From Paludisphaera borealis (GTDB lineage: Bacteria; Planctomycetota; Planctomycetia; Isosphaerales; Isosphaeraceae): a stretch of DNA of 64,000 nucleotides. Numbering within the stretch: position 1 is the first letter of the stretch; every line of letters begins with the position of its first letter. A program made the position numbers and the translations under genes. Below are positions 19,368 to 26,762 of this stretch, piece by piece. The stretch is taken from NCBI RefSeq assembly GCF_001956985.1, contig NZ_CP019082.1:3906001-3970000 (forward strand), written 5' to 3'. The notes under the pieces were generated by a model, which was not told the origin of the DNA, ran no database searches, and saw nothing but the letters and a program-made list of their open reading frames with translations.

Positions 19368-20750
19368 GTGGCCAGTAAGCCCTGGGGCGGGCGGTTTGAC
19401 GCCGGGACGGATCGGCGGGTGGAGGAGTTCACAGAGTCGATCTCCTTCGACCAGCGGCTGTTCCGTCACGACATCCTGGGCTCGCAGGCGCACGCGCGGA
19501 TGCTCGCGCACGTCGGGTTGTTGACGGACGACGAGCGCGACCAGATCGTGCGAGGGCTGTCGGAGATCCAGACCGAGATCGAGGAAGGGCGGTTCCCGTT
19601 CGTTCTGGAGCGGGAAGACGTCCACATGCACATCGAGTCGGCCTTGACCGAGAAGCTCGGCGACGTCGGCCGCAAGCTGCACACGGGCCGGAGCCGGAAT
19701 GATCAAGTGTCGACCGACGTAAAACTCTGGACCCGCGACGCCATCGACCGGCTCGTCATCGGCCTCGTCCACCTTCAGCGGTCGTTCGTCCAGGCGGCCG
19801 AGCGGCATCGCGACGTGATCCTGCCGGGCTACACGCACATGCAGCGCGCCCAGCCGATCCTCGCCCCTCATTACTTCCTGGCGTACGTCGAGAAGCTCGA
19901 ACGCGATCGAACCCGGCTGCTCGACGCGCGCAAGCGACTCAACGTCCTGCCGTTGGGCGCGGCGGCCTTGGCCGGGACGAGCATCCCCATCGACCGCGCG
20001 TTCACGGCCCGCGAGCTGGGCTTCGACGGCGTGGCGGCCAACAGCCTGGACGTCTCCAGCGACCGCGATTTCGCCATCGAGTCGGTCTTCACCCTCACCC
20101 TGATCGCCGAGCACCTGGCGGGCTGGGCCGAGGAGTGGATCCTCTGGAGCACCCAGGAGTTCGGCTTTCTGGCGCTGCCGGACGCCATCTGCACCGGCAG
20201 CAGCATCATGCCGCAGAAGAAGAATCCCGACGTCCTCGAACTGATCCGGGGCCGGTCCGCCCGGGTCGTCGGGGCGCTGACGACGCTCCTCGTTCTGATC
20301 AAGGGCCTGCCGCTCGCCTACAACCGCGACCTGCAAGAAGACAAACAGCCGCTGTTCGACGCCTTCGACACGGTCGAAGCCTGCGTGGCGCTGGCGGCGG
20401 TCGTCGTCGACGGCGCCCGGCTGAGGGCCGACCGGATCGCCGAACGGATCGACGAAGGCTTCCTCGACGCCACCACGTTCATGGAATACCTGATCCTCAA
20501 GGGCATCCCCCAGCGCACCGCCCACGAGGTCATTGGCCGGCTGGTCGGCCTCTGCGAGCGCCGAGGGTTGAAACGCCTGGCCGACCTGACCGACGCCGAA
20601 CTCGCCGAGGCCCACCCGAAACTCGACGCCGAAGCGCGGGGCGTGCTGGGCGTCGAACAGTCGATCAAGGCGTTCAAGTCGTACGGTTCGACCGCCCCGG
20701 ACGAGGTCGCCAAGCAACTCGAAGGCTGGAAGGCCAGGCTGGAAGTCTGA
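19368..20750 (+). CDS. argH: Argininosuccinate lyase
   Basis: 460 residues from a GTG start with AGGGGAG upstream; normal length. It cleaves argininosuccinate to arginine and fumarate, the last step of arginine synthesis, as a cytoplasmic homotetramer. It has KPWGGRF at the N-terminus, HTGRSRNDQVSTD, GYTHMQRAQP and the fumarase-superfamily signature GSSIMPQKKNPD with the catalytic serine. It is followed after about 100 bases by lysA, and a promoter lies upstream. Assignment is secure. Confidence 0.97.
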   Translation: MASKPWGGRFDAGTDRRVEEFTESISFDQRLFRHDILGSQAHARMLAHVGLLTDDERDQIVRGLSEIQTEIEEGRFPFVLEREDVHMHIESALTEKLGDVGRKLHTGRSRNDQVSTDVKLWTRDAIDRLVIGLVHLQRSFVQAAERHRDVILPGYTHMQRAQPILAPHYFLAYVEKLERDRTRLLDARKRLNVLPLGAAALAGTSIPIDRAFTARELGFDGVAANSLDVSSDRDFAIESVFTLTLIAEHLAGWAEEWILWSTQEFGFLALPDAICTGSSIMPQKKNPDVLELIRGRSARVVGALTTLLVLIKGLPLAYNRDLQEDKQPLFDAFDTVEACVALAAVVVDGARLRADRIAERIDEGFLDATTFMEYLILKGIPQRTAHEVIGRLVGLCERRGLKRLADLTDAELAEAHPKLDAEARGVLGVEQSIKAFKSYGSTAPDEVAKQLEGWKARLEV

Positions 20751-20798
20751 CGAGGGCGGCGGCCGCCCCAAAATATCGACACCGCAGGTTTTATGTAG

Positions 20799-20815
20799 GG
20801 TGGGCGCCGCCCACC
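20799..20815 (+). repeat. Short perfect hairpin in the argH-lysA spacer
   Basis: GGTGGGC-GCC-GCCCACC, preceded by TATGTAG. Similar GTAGGGTGGGC motifs occur as dispersed repeats in several bacterial groups. It could modulate lysA expression or be a small repeat; it has no T run. Confidence 0.5.
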
Positions 20816-20850
20816 GTCTTCTCCCTCCAACGCGAGCCCCACATACTCCC

Positions 20851-22134
20851 ATGGAAGCCTTTCAATACCGCGGCAATGAGCTTTACTGTGAAGGCGTTTC
20901 GGTGGCCGAACTGGCCAAGCAGTACGGGACGCCGCTGTACGTGTACAGCCAGGCGGCTCTGGTGGGCTCGCTGAAGGCGCTGCAAGACGCCTACGCCGAG
21001 GTCGACCCGCTGATCTGCTACTCGGTGAAGGCGAACTCGAACCTGGGCGTGCTGAAAGTGCTGGGCGCGCACGGCAGCGGGTTCGACGTGGTTTCCGGCG
21101 GCGAGCTGTTCCGGGTTCAGAAGGCCGGCGGCGACCCGGGCATGACGGTGTTCGCCGGGGTGGGCAAGAGCGACCCCGAGATCGCCCAGGCGATCGAGGC
21201 CGGGGTCTTGATGTTCAACGTCGAGAGCGAGGCCGAACTCGCGTCGATCGCCCGGGTGGCGGCGGGGATGAACCGGGTCGCGCCGATCGCGCTGCGGGTC
21301 AATCCCGACGTCGATCCGAAAACGCACCGGTACACCTCGACCGGCCAGAAGGAGTCGAAGTTCGGGCTCGACATCGAGCGCGCGTTGCGGATCGCCGAGA
21401 CGGTCAAGGATCTGCCGAGCCTGACGATGATCGGCATGCACATGCACATCGGCTCGCAGATCACGACCGTCGAGCCGTACGCCAAGGCGGTGGCCAAGGG
21501 GGTCGAGCTGATCGCCAAGCTGCGGGCGATGGGCCATCCGATCGCCTGGTACAACATGGGAGGCGGCTACGGCATCGCCTATCGAGGCCCCGAGGCCAAG
21601 CCGGTGAGTGAATTCGCCGAGGCGATCCTGCCGGGGCTGAAGGCCACCGGCTGCCGGCTGGCGATCGAGCCCGGGCGGGTGATCGCGGGCAACGCCGGCA
21701 TCCTGGTCAGTCGTGTGTTATATACCAAGCAGTCGGGCGATAAGCGATTTTTGATTCAGGACGCGGCGATGAACGACCTGATCCGCCCCGCGCTCTACGA
21801 ATCGTTCCACCGGATCTGGCCGGTGACGGTCCCGCAAGGTCTGCCGGCGCCCCCGGCCGACTACGAGGCCGCCATCGAAGGGGCCGAGCCGTGGGACGTC
21901 GTCGGGCCGATCTGCGAGAGCGGCGACTTCTTCGCCAAGGACCGCGCCTTGCCCCCACTGGGCCCGGGCGCGCTTCTGGCCACGTTCTCCGCCGGCGCCT
22001 ACGGGATGGTGATGGCCTCGAACTACAACACGCGCCCCCGCGCCGCCGAGATTCTCGTTAACGGCGACGGCGCCAGCCTCGTCCGCCGCCGCGAGACCCT
22101 CGACGACCTCGTGGCCCAGGAAGTCGGATTGTAA
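20851..22134 (+). CDS. lysA: Diaminopimelate decarboxylase
   Basis: 427 residues from the ATG at 20851; the longer frame from 20800 begins inside the hairpin and is unlikely. This PLP enzyme decarboxylates meso-diaminopimelate to lysine. The PLP lysine lies in CYSVKANSN, followed by GMHMHIGSQ, the glycine-rich MGGGYGI loop, EPGRVIAGNAG and the CESGDFFAKDR motif that supplies substrate-binding residues from the partner subunit. Fold-type III barrel and C-terminal beta domain are complete. A strong hairpin follows, closing an apparent argH-lysA unit. Confidence 0.97.
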   Translation: MEAFQYRGNELYCEGVSVAELAKQYGTPLYVYSQAALVGSLKALQDAYAEVDPLICYSVKANSNLGVLKVLGAHGSGFDVVSGGELFRVQKAGGDPGMTVFAGVGKSDPEIAQAIEAGVLMFNVESEAELASIARVAAGMNRVAPIALRVNPDVDPKTHRYTSTGQKESKFGLDIERALRIAETVKDLPSLTMIGMHMHIGSQITTVEPYAKAVAKGVELIAKLRAMGHPIAWYNMGGGYGIAYRGPEAKPVSEFAEAILPGLKATGCRLAIEPGRVIAGNAGILVSRVLYTKQSGDKRFLIQDAAMNDLIRPALYESFHRIWPVTVPQGLPAPPADYEAAIEGAEPWDVVGPICESGDFFAKDRALPPLGPGALLATFSAGAYGMVMASNYNTRPRAAEILVNGDGASLVRRRETLDDLVAQEVGL

Positions 22135-22139
22135 CAGCC

Positions 22140-22174
22140 GGGGCGGGCGAACTCACTCGTTCGCTCGCCCCTTT
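22140..22174 (+). terminator. Hairpin terminator after lysA
   Basis: A 13-bp stem (GGGGCGGGCGAAC with GTTCGCTCGCCCC, one G-T pair) and a 6-base loop, followed by TTTG, six bases after the lysA stop. Confidence 0.75.
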
Positions 22175-22221
22175 GACGAACAAACGCCGGGACCCAGTCA
22201 CGAACACATCGGACCAGAATC

Positions 22222-24384
22222 ATGCGTGAAATCATCGTTCGCTCGATGGCGGGGATTCTCGCCCTGGTCGTGGTCGCGTCGACCCCGCCGGGGTCGTGGG
22301 GGCAAGTCCCCGGTCCCGAGTCGTTCGCGAAGGAGCCGGAGACGCCGGTCGAGCTCTGGGGGGCGATCGACTACCTCGTCCGCACCGGGCAGAGCAAGCA
22401 GGCCGTGCCGTACCTCGAGAAGTTCACCAAGAGCAACCCCGACGACGCCACCCTGATCACGATCCGCGACAAGTACGGCCCCGGCTCGTTCCTGCGGCTC
22501 AGCGATTATCCGGAAACCAAGTCCTACGCCCACCCGCTCGTCGAGAAGCTCACCGCCGCCTCACGCAAGGTCGCCGCCGACCCTCAGCGCGTACGGCGGT
22601 TCGTCGAGGCGCTCGGGCTTTCGGGCGCGGAGCAGGATTACGCGGTTTCCCGGCTCCGCGAATCGGGTGCGTACGCCGTGCCTCCGCTGGTCGAGGAGAT
22701 CGCCAAACAGGGGTACTCGACGCCCGAGCGGTCGCGGCTGGTCCATAACGCGGGCCGACTCGATCGGTCGTCGGTCCCGGCCTGGATCGCGGCCCTCGAC
22801 AGCCCCGACCCCCACCTGGCCGCCAACGCGGCGACGATCCTGGGGGCGATCGGCGATCCTCGGGCCGTGCCGTTCCTGACCTACCCGGCCGCCGCGGCCG
22901 ATTCGTCGCCGGCCCTCAAAACGGCCGCTCAGCGGGCGATCGCGAGCCTGACCGGCAAGCCGTTCGAATCCCAGCCGACGCCCCCCGCGCAGGTGCTCGT
23001 CGACGCCGCCGTCGCGTTCGCCCGCCACCGGTTCGAGATGCCCAGCGACGCGGTCCTGGTCTGGAAGTGGGACGAGGCCCAAAGCGCGCCGGCGCCGTCC
23101 AAGGCCGTCGTGACCGAGGTCGAGGAGTATTTCGGAATCAAGCTGGCGCGGCAGGCGTTGAAGCTCGACCCGACCAATCGCAAGGCGCAGACGGTGCTGC
23201 TGGGGCTGTCGCTGGAGAAGGCCGTCGAACGGGTCGGCTTCGTGAACTTCCCGGCCAAGGACCAGGCGACGTTCGCGACGGCCCTGGCGGCCGGCCCGGC
23301 GGTCCTCGCCGACATCTTGCGGGCCGCGATCGCCGACGGCAAGTCCGACCTGGCGGCCGTCACGGCCGACGCGCTCGGCAAGGTCACCGACGCCAAGCGG
23401 CTCGCCGCCGACGGCCGTCCCCACCCGCTGGTCGACGCCCTGTCGAGGCCCGGCCGCCGGCTCCAGCTCGCCGCGGCGAAGGCGCTGGTGGACATGGCGC
23501 CGTCCGACCCGTTCCCGGGCTCCAGCCGGGTGGTCCCGGCCCTCGGGCGGTTCGTGATGAATCAGGGCCAGCCGCGCGCCGTGGTGATCGACGGCAACCC
23601 GACTCGGGGGAGCGCCACGGCCGGCTTGCTCAAGCAGCTCGGCTACGACGCGTCGCTGCAACTGACCGGCGAGCAAGGTTTCCAGGACGCGACCGAGTCG
23701 GCCGACGTCGAGCTGATCCTGGTCAGCCACCACCTCACGCAAGGCCGCTGGAACCTGCTCGACGTCCTCACCAACCTGCGGAACGACTCCCGGACTTCGA
23801 ACCTGCCGCTGTACATCTACGGCCCGCAATCGCTCGAAATCACCCGGCCGAACCTGCCGGTCGACTACCCGGGCGTGAAGTACATGGTTTACACGACCGA
23901 CCGCGGCTCGCTCGAACGGCAGCTTGGCGGAAGGCCGGCGAAACTGAGCGACGCCGAACGGCTCGACTACGCCAAGCAAGCCGCGGCGCTGCTGGCCCGG
24001 ATCGCCTCGCAGCCCAACAGCCCGTTCGCCCCCGACCTCGCCGCCGCCGAGCCCGCGCTGACGGCGGCGATCGGCACGCCGGACGTCGCGCTGTCGGCCT
24101 CGACGGCGCTGGGCGACGTTCCCAACGCCGACGCCCAGCGCGCCCTGGCCGACGTCGTGCTCGACCCGTCGCGCGACGCCGAACTTCGCCGTTCGAGCGC
24201 GCAGCAGCTCGCCCGCAGCATCCAGCGGTTCGGCCCGCTCGTGGCGGCCGACCAGGAAGTCAAGCTGGTCGAGGCCTTCCGAGGCGACGACGATCCCGAA
24301 CTGCACTCGGCCCTCGGCATGGTCGTCGGCACTCTTCGCCGCGACCCCCGACCCGGCGTGAAGGCCAAGGCGGACGCGAATTGA
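22222..24384 (+). CDS. Exported HEAT-repeat protein with an embedded pseudo-receiver domain
   Basis: 720 residues. The first 28 look like a signal peptide (IVRSMAGILALVVVAS, then SWGQ). HEAT-like helical repeats occupy about 100-250 (for example DPHLAANAATILGAIGDPRA) and again toward the C-terminus (AASTALGDVPNADAQRALAD-like pattern). Residues about 450-570 form a CheY-like alpha/beta block starting AVVIDGNPTRGSATAGLLKQ. The expected phospho-acceptor strand reads VELILVSHHL with no Asp, and the Thr and Lys positions are also lost, so it cannot be phosphorylated in the usual way. A sigma-54 activator starts 51 bases downstream. An exported receiver-like domain is odd; if the leader is really a membrane anchor the topology would differ. 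The function is unknown. Confidence 0.7.
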   Translation: MREIIVRSMAGILALVVVASTPPGSWGQVPGPESFAKEPETPVELWGAIDYLVRTGQSKQAVPYLEKFTKSNPDDATLITIRDKYGPGSFLRLSDYPETKSYAHPLVEKLTAASRKVAADPQRVRRFVEALGLSGAEQDYAVSRLRESGAYAVPPLVEEIAKQGYSTPERSRLVHNAGRLDRSSVPAWIAALDSPDPHLAANAATILGAIGDPRAVPFLTYPAAAADSSPALKTAAQRAIASLTGKPFESQPTPPAQVLVDAAVAFARHRFEMPSDAVLVWKWDEAQSAPAPSKAVVTEVEEYFGIKLARQALKLDPTNRKAQTVLLGLSLEKAVERVGFVNFPAKDQATFATALAAGPAVLADILRAAIADGKSDLAAVTADALGKVTDAKRLAADGRPHPLVDALSRPGRRLQLAAAKALVDMAPSDPFPGSSRVVPALGRFVMNQGQPRAVVIDGNPTRGSATAGLLKQLGYDASLQLTGEQGFQDATESADVELILVSHHLTQGRWNLLDVLTNLRNDSRTSNLPLYIYGPQSLEITRPNLPVDYPGVKYMVYTTDRGSLERQLGGRPAKLSDAERLDYAKQAAALLARIASQPNSPFAPDLAAAEPALTAAIGTPDVALSASTALGDVPNADAQRALADVVLDPSRDAELRRSSAQQLARSIQRFGPLVAADQEVKLVEAFRGDDDPELHSALGMVVGTLRRDPRPGVKAKADAN

Positions 24385-24435
24385 AAACCCAACGCCAGCG
24401 GGGCGGGGCCCCCGGTCCCGAGGACGGCGCGATCC

Positions 24436-25620
24436 ATGCCCATTGAGACCCGGTCGAGCTACGGCCCGCACGTGAAAGCCTCGCTCGCGGGGTCGGCGTC
24501 CAACGCCGACCCGGACGCGGCGTTGCCCGGCGTCATCGGCGACAGCCCCGTGATGCGCGAGGTCTACCGCACCACCCGCCAGGTCGCCCCGTCGCGCGCC
24601 TGCGTCCTGATCGTCGGCGAGACCGGCACCGGCAAGGAGCTGATCGCCCGCGCCATCCACGACCTCAGCCCACGGTCGACCGGCCCTTACATCCGGGTCA
24701 ACTGCGGGGCCCTGACCGAGAGTCTGCTGGAAAGCGAGCTGTTCGGCCACGTCAAGGGGTCGTTCACCGGCGCGGTCGACAACCGCACCGGCCGGTTCGA
24801 AGCCGCGCACGCCGGCAGCATCTTCCTCGACGAGATCAACAGCACCTCGCCCAAGCTCCAGGTCAAGCTCCTCCGCGTCCTTCAGGAAGGGGAGTTCGAG
24901 CGGGTCGGCGACAACAACACCAAGAAAGTCGACACCCGGATCGTCGCGGCCACCAACCGCGACCTGCTCGACGAGATCGACACCGGCCGGTTCCGCGAAG
25001 ACCTTTATTACCGGCTCAACGTCGTGCCGATCCTGCTTCCCGCCCTTCGCGACCGCCGCGACGACGTCGAGCTTCTGGTCCTCTCGTTCCTCAAGCGGTA
25101 CGCCGAGCAAAACCGCCGCGAGATGCGCAAGGTGCACCCCGAGGCGATGCGGAAACTTCGCGAGCACGACTGGCCGGGGAACGTCCGCGAGCTGCAAAAC
25201 TACGTCGAACGGGCGGTGATCCTCGGGTCGGGCCAGGAGATGCTGGTCGAGCACTTGCCCCCGCAGCTTCGCGGCGAGACCTCGCCCCGGCCGATCCGCC
25301 ACCGAGGCGCGGCGTCCGCCGACTTCGGCTCGCTGACGTCCGAGCTGGTCCGGCAGGGGATACGGACCGCCGGCCCCAACGCCACCGACCTGCACGATCG
25401 CGTCGTCGGCCAGGTCGAGCGCGAGCTGATCCAGCAAGTGCTCCAGTCCTGCGACCGCGTCCAGATCAAGGCCGCCGCCCGGCTCGGCATCAACCGCAAC
25501 ACGCTCCACAAGAAGCTCTCGGAATACCGGATCGACGAGAACCTCCCCGCATCGGCCCCCAACGGCGACGGCGACGACGCCCGGTCCGGCGAACCCTCCC
25601 CCCCTGACGACGAATCGTGA
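24436..25620 (+). CDS. Sigma-54-dependent activator without a sensory domain
   Basis: 394 residues. Only about 35 residues precede the AAA+ core (Walker A GETGTGKE 61-68; Walker B GSIFLDEI 127-134). The sigma-54-contacting loop is GSFTGA (108-113), a known variant of GAFTGA. A C-terminal Fis-type helix-turn-helix ([15 protein letters not shown]) lies around 350-370. With no receiver, GAF or PAS domain it is probably controlled by level, by a partner, or is constitutive. It sits between the pseudo-receiver protein gene and a DNA methylase whose GTG start overlaps its stop, so all three may be cotranscribed. Target promoters are unknown. Confidence 0.9.
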
Positions 25621-26612
25621 GCACCCCCATGTTCGAGCCGGCTTCCTCGCCCATTGAGCCCGTCGAAGTCGACGCCGAACCGGCGACGCGGATCCGCGCG
25701 CGAAAGTCCAGTCGAACTTCGACCGCCGCGCTCGAACTCGACCGTTTGCACCCGGGCGACTGCCTGGACCTATTGCCCCGGATCGACACGGGGTCGATCG
25801 ACCTGATTTTCGCCGACCCGCCCTTCAACATAGGCTATGATTACGACATCTACGACGACAGCCGCGACACCGGCAGTTACCTGGACTGGACCAGGCGATG
25901 GGGTCGTGAAGTCGTTCGTGCGCTCAAGCCCGACGGGACGTTCTGGCTCGCGATCGGCGACGAATACGCCGCCGAGATGAAGGTGATCTTTCATCGCGAA
26001 CTGGGCCTGTCCTTGCGGAGCTGGGTGATTTGGTACTATACGTTTGGGGTCCACTGCAGCCGCAAGTTCAGCCGCAGCCATGCCCACTTGTTTTACTTCG
26101 TGAAGGACCCCAAACGTTTCACCTTCAACGATCTGGACGTCCGAGTTCCCTCGGCTCGCCAGCTCGTCTATAACGACGCCCGCGCCAATCCCCTGGGCCG
26201 ACTCCCCGACGACACCTGGATCCTCCGCCCCCAGGACATGCAGCAGGGCTTCGAGCCCACGGAAGACACCTGGTACGTCCCCCGCGTCTGCGGCACGTTC
26301 AAGGAGCGCGCGGGCTGGCACGGCTGCCAGATGCCCGAACAGCTCCTCGGCCGGATCGTCCGCGCCTGCTCGAGCCCGGGCGAAACCGTCCTCGACCCGT
26401 TCGGCGGCAGCGGCACGACGCTGACCGTCGCCAAGAAGCTCGAACGCCGATTCCTCGGCTTCGAACTCTCCGACGAATACGCCCGGGCCATCCAGGCCCG
26501 CCTCGACCGCGCCCAGCCCGGCCAACCCCTCGAAGGCGGCCCCGAACCCCTCGCCGGCGGCAAGAAGACGCCGACCGAACCCGGCAACGGCAAGAGCCGA
26601 TCCAAGACATAG
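25617..26612 (+). CDS. Beta-class DNA adenine methyltransferase
   Basis: 331 residues starting from GTG at 25617, overlapping the activator stop (GTGA). The catalytic motif IV DPPF is at 67-70 ([13 protein letters not shown]) and the SAM-binding motif DPFGGSGT at 260-267; this order is that of beta-class enzymes, and DPPF favours N6-adenine over N4-cytosine. The target-recognition region lies between. No cognate endonuclease is adjacent, so it may be an orphan (regulatory) methylase; the nearby OLD nuclease is on a later insert. The last 35 codons and about 40 bases beyond are present again at 29161-29294. Specificity is unknown. Confidence 0.9.
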
Positions 26613-26653
26613 TTCAATCCAGCTATGTTACCGCCCGACCTCGTAAGGCGGTC
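26511..26653. repeat. Direct repeat copy 1: methylase tail and downstream flank
   Basis: 143 bases covering the end of the methylase gene (from [10 protein letters not shown] onward) and its 3' flank through CTCGTAAGGCGGTC. Copy 2 at 29161-29294 matches it at an estimated 85-90% identity by eye, differing by one 9-base (three-codon) indel and scattered substitutions. Within it, ACCGCC-N11-GGCGGT (26630-26652) can pair as a weak terminator. The two copies bound the OLD insert. Confidence 0.85.
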
Positions 26654-26762
26654 AGACCGCTGCGTTAATTTCGGGCATTACCTGCGCGAAGCGACCCCAG
26701 AAGCTCACACCATGAGCCGGTGTCGGCTCATTCGATCTCTGGATTTCTGCGAGAGAAGAGCA

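Follow-up and report, generated by a model that had tools for sequence, protein, structure and literature searches.

Architecture of the protein

We have analysed a window of 64,000 nucleotides from the genome of Paludisphaera borealis (contig NZ_CP019082.1, positions 3,906,001–3,970,000). All positions given here are those of the window, and the parts of the locus between 20800 and 25620 lie on its forward strand. An open reading frame at 22222–24384 has an ATG start and encodes a protein of 720 amino acids, which is found in a single copy in the 7.65 Mb genome at E≤10. Upstream of it lies a gene for a PLP decarboxylase of the LysA type (20800–22134; Orn_Arg_deC_N, 6e-57). Downstream there is a gene for a sigma-54 activator (24436–25620) with an AAA+ domain (Sigma54_activat, 8.5e-70) and a Fis-type HTH (HTH_8, 2.3e-12), in which Pfam lists no Response_reg. 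The reading frame, Pfam, a structural model and the homologs describe the 720-residue product as a TPR/HEAT – pseudo-receiver – HEAT protein, predicted to be exported. Its parts follow in the order leader, TPR/HEAT solenoid, receiver-fold block (about residues 450–572) and C-terminal helical array.

The helical parts are of two kinds. Residues 38–118 (22333–22575) form TPR-like helices in the model, with a weak match to TPR_14 at residues 44–78 (0.00055, 20.8 bits, under the Pfam cut-off of 23.5). They are followed by a HEAT solenoid with further helices, residues 121–445 (22582–23556), where HEAT_2 matches residues 163–241 (2.7e-10, 40.8 bits, above the cut-off of 27.7). A HEAT_2 match over the gathering cut-off and helical repeats in the model place it among the HEAT-repeat proteins. 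The C-terminal array, residues 577–706 (23950–24339), is HEAT-like by its helices in the model; the Pfam scan lists no best stretch in it. For the full protein Pfam lists no DNA-binding, kinase or cyclase domain. AlphaFold2 models the full protein on a 70-row alignment with a mean pLDDT of 93.3 and a pTM of 0.87, and the best 50 Foldseek matches of this model are proteins with helical repeats, eukaryotic with few exceptions. The model also has a β-hairpin, residues 277–296 (23050–23109), midway in the scaffold. Its W281 is the sole invariant column of the 70 rows and W283 is nearly invariant.

The block has a receiver fold

The pseudo-receiver, residues 450–572 (23569–23937), is a (βα)5 domain recognised by model, profile and alignment. 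A reading of the sequence without database searches had noticed the rhythm of strands and helices of CheY near residues 450–570, and structure prediction bears this out. In the full model the strands and helices follow each other in receiver order from residue 452 to 568, and the block alone (447–580) is again predicted as a (βα)5 fold with a pLDDT of 89.9. Among the best 50 matches from each search, CheY is found with a VIA Z score of 17.1 (2.0 Å over 120 residues, 4h60) and a Foldseek value of 1.1e-6. FrzS is matched in fold at 2.0e-6 and in profile at 1.5e-7.

Homology becomes visible with the family profile of the block, built from 67 rows (the query and 66 homologs). A single-sequence search of the PDB is weak, its best match being the CheY of H. 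pylori with E 0.0036. The profile matches 194 PDB sequences at E≤1, with PleD at the top (3.4e-13). The best 60 of these 194 are response regulators, CheY, PleD, RpaA, short constructs of two sensor proteins, and FrzS with its fusions. Run against the own genome at E≤10, the profile recovers the block and matches 35 further places; all but one of these 35 overlap PF00072 receivers. Pfam does not reach its gathering cut-off for Response_reg (PF00072), which is absent at E≤10 from the full protein and at E≤0.1 from the query block. Taken singly, eight of the 67 blocks give a Response_reg match at E≤0.1, at best 0.0065, and two give a match to an RCK domain, at best 0.00063.

The block is a pseudo-receiver in its fold, which is predicted, and in its descent, which is given by the profile. 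A non-receiver fold was considered and rejected on the profile matches in the PDB and on the Foldseek and VIA matches; judging from the model, the block is almost certainly a receiver fold.

Active site and its probable decay

At the five positions of the active site the query reads D-G-S-G-Y: D457, G458, S502 at the Asp site, G534 at the Thr site and Y557 at the Lys site. The loss of Asp, Thr and Lys which had been read from the query sequence is confirmed by the alignment, and S502 makes the query an aspartate-less receiver (ALR). In an alignment of the 70 PF00072 receivers of the same genome, whose reference reads D-D-D-T-K, 62 are complete at the five positions and two of the other eight are gapped at the Lys site.

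A survey of the homologs for the Asp gives a divided answer: it is absent from the query, but it has not been lost throughout the family. Of the 70 rows of the class alignment (the query and 69 homologs), 26 have the Asp, one has the Thr and none has the Lys. Because of these 26 rows the term ALR does not extend to the entire family. A larger set of 125 blocks was scored with D or E accepted in the acidic pair and T or S at the Thr site. The columns of the five residues are subject to alignment error, and one of two canonical controls was shifted by a column at the Thr site. No block in this set is complete for the acidic pair, Asp, Thr/Ser and Lys, and neither is the query; four of the five residues are found in three blocks, and three of the five in six blocks. 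The nearest to complete read D-S-D-T-K (L123), E-D-S-T-K (L105) and E-D-S-S-K (L102). L123, from genome G405, is a phylum member with a leader; it keeps an acidic residue, the Asp, the Thr and the Lys, and is one of the members which come closest to a receiver with an intact site and predicted export. On the tree of the 70 class sequences the Asp state has changed at least 11 times. We infer from this pattern a repeated decay of an ancestral receiver which would have been functional. In three class members (L060, L066 and L068) the receiver block contains about 200 additional residues between its first and last aligned positions.

Predicted export

A signal peptide ahead of the block had also been proposed, and it stands as a prediction. 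The leader MREIIVRSMAGILALVVVASTPPGSWG, followed by Q, fits a Sec signal peptide, residues 1–27 (22222–22302). It has a basic start, a hydrophobic stretch of 11 residues with a mean hydropathy of 2.87 and small residues before Q28, so that the n-, h- and c-regions of a cleavable Sec leader are present by a crude rule. It has no Cys for a lipobox. By eye we place the cleavage between G27 and Q28; the scripted rule favoured A19 and S20. In the homologs AxA before Q is common at this position.

A start site without the leader was considered and rejected. Ahead of the ATG the frame stays open for another 15 codons, none of which is a start codon. The in-frame starts are at residues 1, 9, 17 and then 62, and residue 62 lies inside the conserved part, so that no plausible start removes the leader.

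The rule that we used is crude and self-made, not a trained predictor, and its results have to be read against controls. It fires in 62 of 68 homologs, with a choice of start which favours hydrophobic leaders, and to the eye the six that it misses are leader-like as well. When the start is chosen in this way for the products of neighbouring genes, it fires in 6 of 106 (argH 1/20, lysA 1/35, sigma-54 activator 3/49, methylase 1/2); 12 more neighbours had no testable N-terminus. The controls give 5 of 116 with their listed starts (argH 1/22, lysA 1/45, sigma-54 activator 2/46, methylase 1/3) and 6 of 116 when any Met in the first 60 residues is allowed (argH, lysA, sigma-54 and methylase). Each of another 40 phylum members shows a hydrophobic leader when its best start is taken, a measure which has no control of its own and in which the choice of start again favours such leaders. 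Applied to the 70 receivers of the own genome with every upstream start permitted, the rule also fired in 10; by eye these are long proteins or internal starts, some of them probably membrane kinases. Leader and receiver-like block occur together in the homologs that we have read. From its sequence we predict with high confidence that the protein is exported.

Distribution and selection

Our surveys covered the Planctomycetota. Counting the own genome, homologs are found in 43 of the 45 genomes sampled from the family (E≤1e-5), in 278 of 297 genomes of the class and in 232 of 294 genomes of the phylum (family profile, E≤1e-20). This last count rests on the whole profile, to which the helical repeats contribute, and the receiver itself was checked in 60 further phylum loci: 58 of them keep it. 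The two members without it, L088 (genome G564) and L089 (G417), have open frames that are 624 and 588 codons long. Five further short frames of the phylum list (G445, G541, G431, G493 and G421) matched over the first part only. A separate scan for related loci yielded just three.

The block is about as conserved as the helical repeats on its two sides, with a mean of 1.97 bits against 2.03 in residues 121–245 and 1.95 in residues 577–706. Within the block conservation is high in β1 (2.89 bits), β3 (2.53), α3 (2.35) and the α3–β4 turn (2.89). It is low in α4 (1.31), β5 (1.68), α5 (1.53) and the β3–α3 loop (1.28). In nine near pairs, picked by hand, dN/dS is 0.07–0.39 in the receiver, 0.06–0.31 in one flank and 0.14–0.58 in the other: in these pairs the receiver domain is under purifying selection.

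Gene neighbourhood

The sigma-54 activator is a conserved downstream neighbour within the class. By a midpoint rule, 48 of the 70 class loci carry its homolog downstream of the gene and in the same orientation, inside the sequence fetched as flank; by our own tally these loci span 10 families. The number becomes 49 if L005 is included, where the matching open frame also crosses the gene. Gene calls give the activator as the next gene in 44 loci and as the third in one. The sigma-54 gene was not found downstream in the remaining 21 or 22 class loci. In 45 activator proteins the median number of residues ahead of the AAA+ domain is 32; three have more than 110, probably as a result of overlong starts. 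The own genome has one RpoN match and 16 activator matches, and the neighbour of our gene has the shortest open frame of the latter, 411 codons.

Outside the class the arrangement is rare. Among the 20 phylum loci with flanks the same order is found once, in L079; in the other 19 no activator was found at that position, and 17 of these have the receiver. Ten neighbours taken from phylum loci are diverse by Pfam: FHA twice, TPR twice, RNase Y, a cyclase, a phosphoesterase and three with a weak match or none. In two phylum loci an FHA-domain protein is the next gene instead of the activator (L077, 6098–7618, and L085, 5693–7291). In the window the activator is followed by a gene for an N6/N4 DNA methylase (25617–26609), a feature shared with a few loci (L021, L022 and L070) in a set where many flanks are short.

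On the upstream side 55 of 70 loci have lysA and/or argH in the same orientation as the gene; among the remaining loci several offer little upstream sequence. Between lysA and the HEAT gene we have found a stem-loop of 13 bp at 22140–22171 (−28 kcal/mol, z −4.88) with three T after it. It is terminator- or attenuator-like, and the terminator scan does not list it. Since this strong hairpin separates lysA from the HEAT gene, the latter may form a transcription unit of its own with the activator. We have found no sigma-54 promoter at the locus: the four matches in the whole window are all away from the gene, and 83 of the 100–200 shuffles run reach as many. No sigma-70-like promoter was found in 20700–26700.

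Comparison with known receivers

The studied receivers are to our knowledge all cytoplasmic, and we are not aware of any published HEAT/TPR protein with a receiver inserted between its helical arrays. PleD is a cytoplasmic diguanylate cyclase whose second receiver is degenerate. Both of its receiver domains (PDB 1w25, 9g85) are the best profile match of the block family. With the bacterial HEAT/TPR α-solenoid proteins (Pfam HEAT_2) our protein shares a HEAT_2 match above cut-off; it differs by the receiver between its two helical arrays.

Receivers are in the top 0.1% of domains in abundance, according to the available passages of PMC12632262. The pseudo-receiver (PsR) and ALR domains described in the available passages of PMC12632262 and PMC4395418 are the closest class: the query lacks four of the five active-site residues, the Asp included. 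It differs from those domains by its predicted export, its insertion in a HEAT solenoid, the lack of a Pfam-listed DNA-binding, kinase or cyclase domain and a similarity which lies under Pfam detection. The same passages of PMC12632262 state that pseudo-receivers show differences in α2, the β3–α3 loop and α3, regions often used by those which bind ligands. The receiver of FrzS from Myxococcus xanthus (PDB 2i6f, 2gkg) is likewise a receiver fold without the Asp. As far as the available passages of PMC1974792 go, FrzS needs its output face; in the predicted exported family α4–β5–α5 is instead among the least conserved parts.

The sequence-only reading held that export of a pseudo-receiver would be new, and nothing in the literature that we searched speaks against it. 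In titles and the openings of abstracts, with most subscription journals outside the scope, no exported or periplasmic receiver is described. The terms periplasm, extracellular and signal peptide have no match in the main text of two reviews on pseudo-receivers and Asp-less receivers. In the passages available of the essential-gene paper on P. limnophila (PMC10632474) we found none on a HEAT protein.

A probable binding module in a predicted exported scaffold

The account which we favour, and hold to be rather probable, is that of an exported scaffold whose degenerate receiver is a binding module independent of phosphorylation. The protein would be exported by Sec and its leader cleaved, as predicted, and its TPR and HEAT repeats would form a superhelical scaffold in the periplasm. 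Between the two helical arrays it would carry a domain descended from the receiver of response regulators, according to the predicted fold and the profile homology. In the periplasm a receiver is out of reach of any ATP-fed histidine kinase domain. For this reason the phosphorylation site would have been free to decay, and to do so differently in each lineage; the pattern is apparent in the alignment and its cause is our interpretation. Meanwhile the domain would have been kept by purifying selection, as it is in the nine pairs. It would most likely serve as a surface which binds a partner protein or a small ligand for the scaffold. This suggests that the fold has found a new use, as a passive binding element in a scaffold of the envelope. 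Several points temper the account. The receiver is dispensable somewhere, since two of the 60 phylum members have none. Moreover the conserved β1, β3, α3 and α3–β4 turn are in good part core, so that their conservation is no proof of a binding surface. The leader rule is crude, and no activator was found downstream in 21 or 22 of the 70 class loci or in the same order in 19 of the 20 flanked phylum loci.

The same observations lend themselves to another explanation, in which the receiver is a rigid spacer, a captured domain which links the helical arrays on its two sides and has no binding function. In its favour, conservation is lowest in the classical output face (α4, β5, α5) and the β3–α3 loop, the conserved positions belong in good part to the core, and two of the 60 phylum members have no receiver. 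However, α3 and the α3–β4 turn are about as well conserved as the core strands β1 and β3, and 58 of 60 phylum members have retained the domain. We consider the spacer a serious but rather unlikely explanation.

A cytoplasmic protein, its leader being misread or an inward anchor, would allow the pseudo-receiver to act in trans on the adjacent activator, much as a regulatory domain would after becoming detached. One RpoN match is present in the genome, and the activator, which has so few residues ahead of its AAA+ domain, is adjacent in 48 of 70 class loci and the very next gene in 44. Against it stand the leader-like N-termini across the homologs and the 19 of 20 flanked phylum loci in which no activator was found in place, 17 of which have the receiver. 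The best listed matches of the block are moreover PleD and CheY, in a comparison which left NtrC-type receivers together with the others. We regard this explanation as very improbable. The related idea of an NtrC-type regulator split into two genes was thought less likely on the same grounds, the receiver without an activator neighbour and the best listed matches.

In some members a secreted kinase or a small phosphodonor might still phosphorylate the receiver outside the cytoplasm and so switch it. The Asp in 26 of 70 class rows and the three nearly complete sites of L123, L105 and L102 would agree with it. The Lys is missing in all 70 class rows, none of the 125 blocks has all five residues and the Asp state is labile, with its 11 or more changes on the tree, so that we give very little credit to such a switch. 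Finally, the block could be another flavodoxin-like fold with a convergent likeness to receivers, given that single sequences are nearly invisible to Pfam (Response_reg in eight of 67, RCK in two), but the profile matches to receivers in the PDB and in the own genome and the three members with four of the five receiver residues make this hardly credible.

Returning to the exported scaffold with its binding module, adjacency suggests that the HEAT gene is probably co-transcribed with the receiver-less activator, so that the regulon of the activator and the envelope protein would belong to one process. Direct contact between the two proteins is unlikely, because they would sit on opposite sides of the membrane. 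A wider reading, which we put forward as tentative and doubtful, joins these points. It would be the first family of receiver domains working outside the cytoplasm, captured into an exported HEAT scaffold early in the Planctomycetota. Its phosphorylation chemistry would have been lost piecemeal, and it would have been kept as a periplasmic module for binding or sensing, in a process controlled by the adjacent receiver-less activator.

The family would show the fate of a receiver fold when the phosphodonor is out of reach, in a domain predicted to be external in most sampled genomes of the phylum. It offers a natural series of active sites, from nearly complete to fully dismantled. A widely conserved planctomycete protein, predicted to belong to the envelope and encoded beside a sigma-54 activator, is also, for a tractable species, a direct starting point for genetics.
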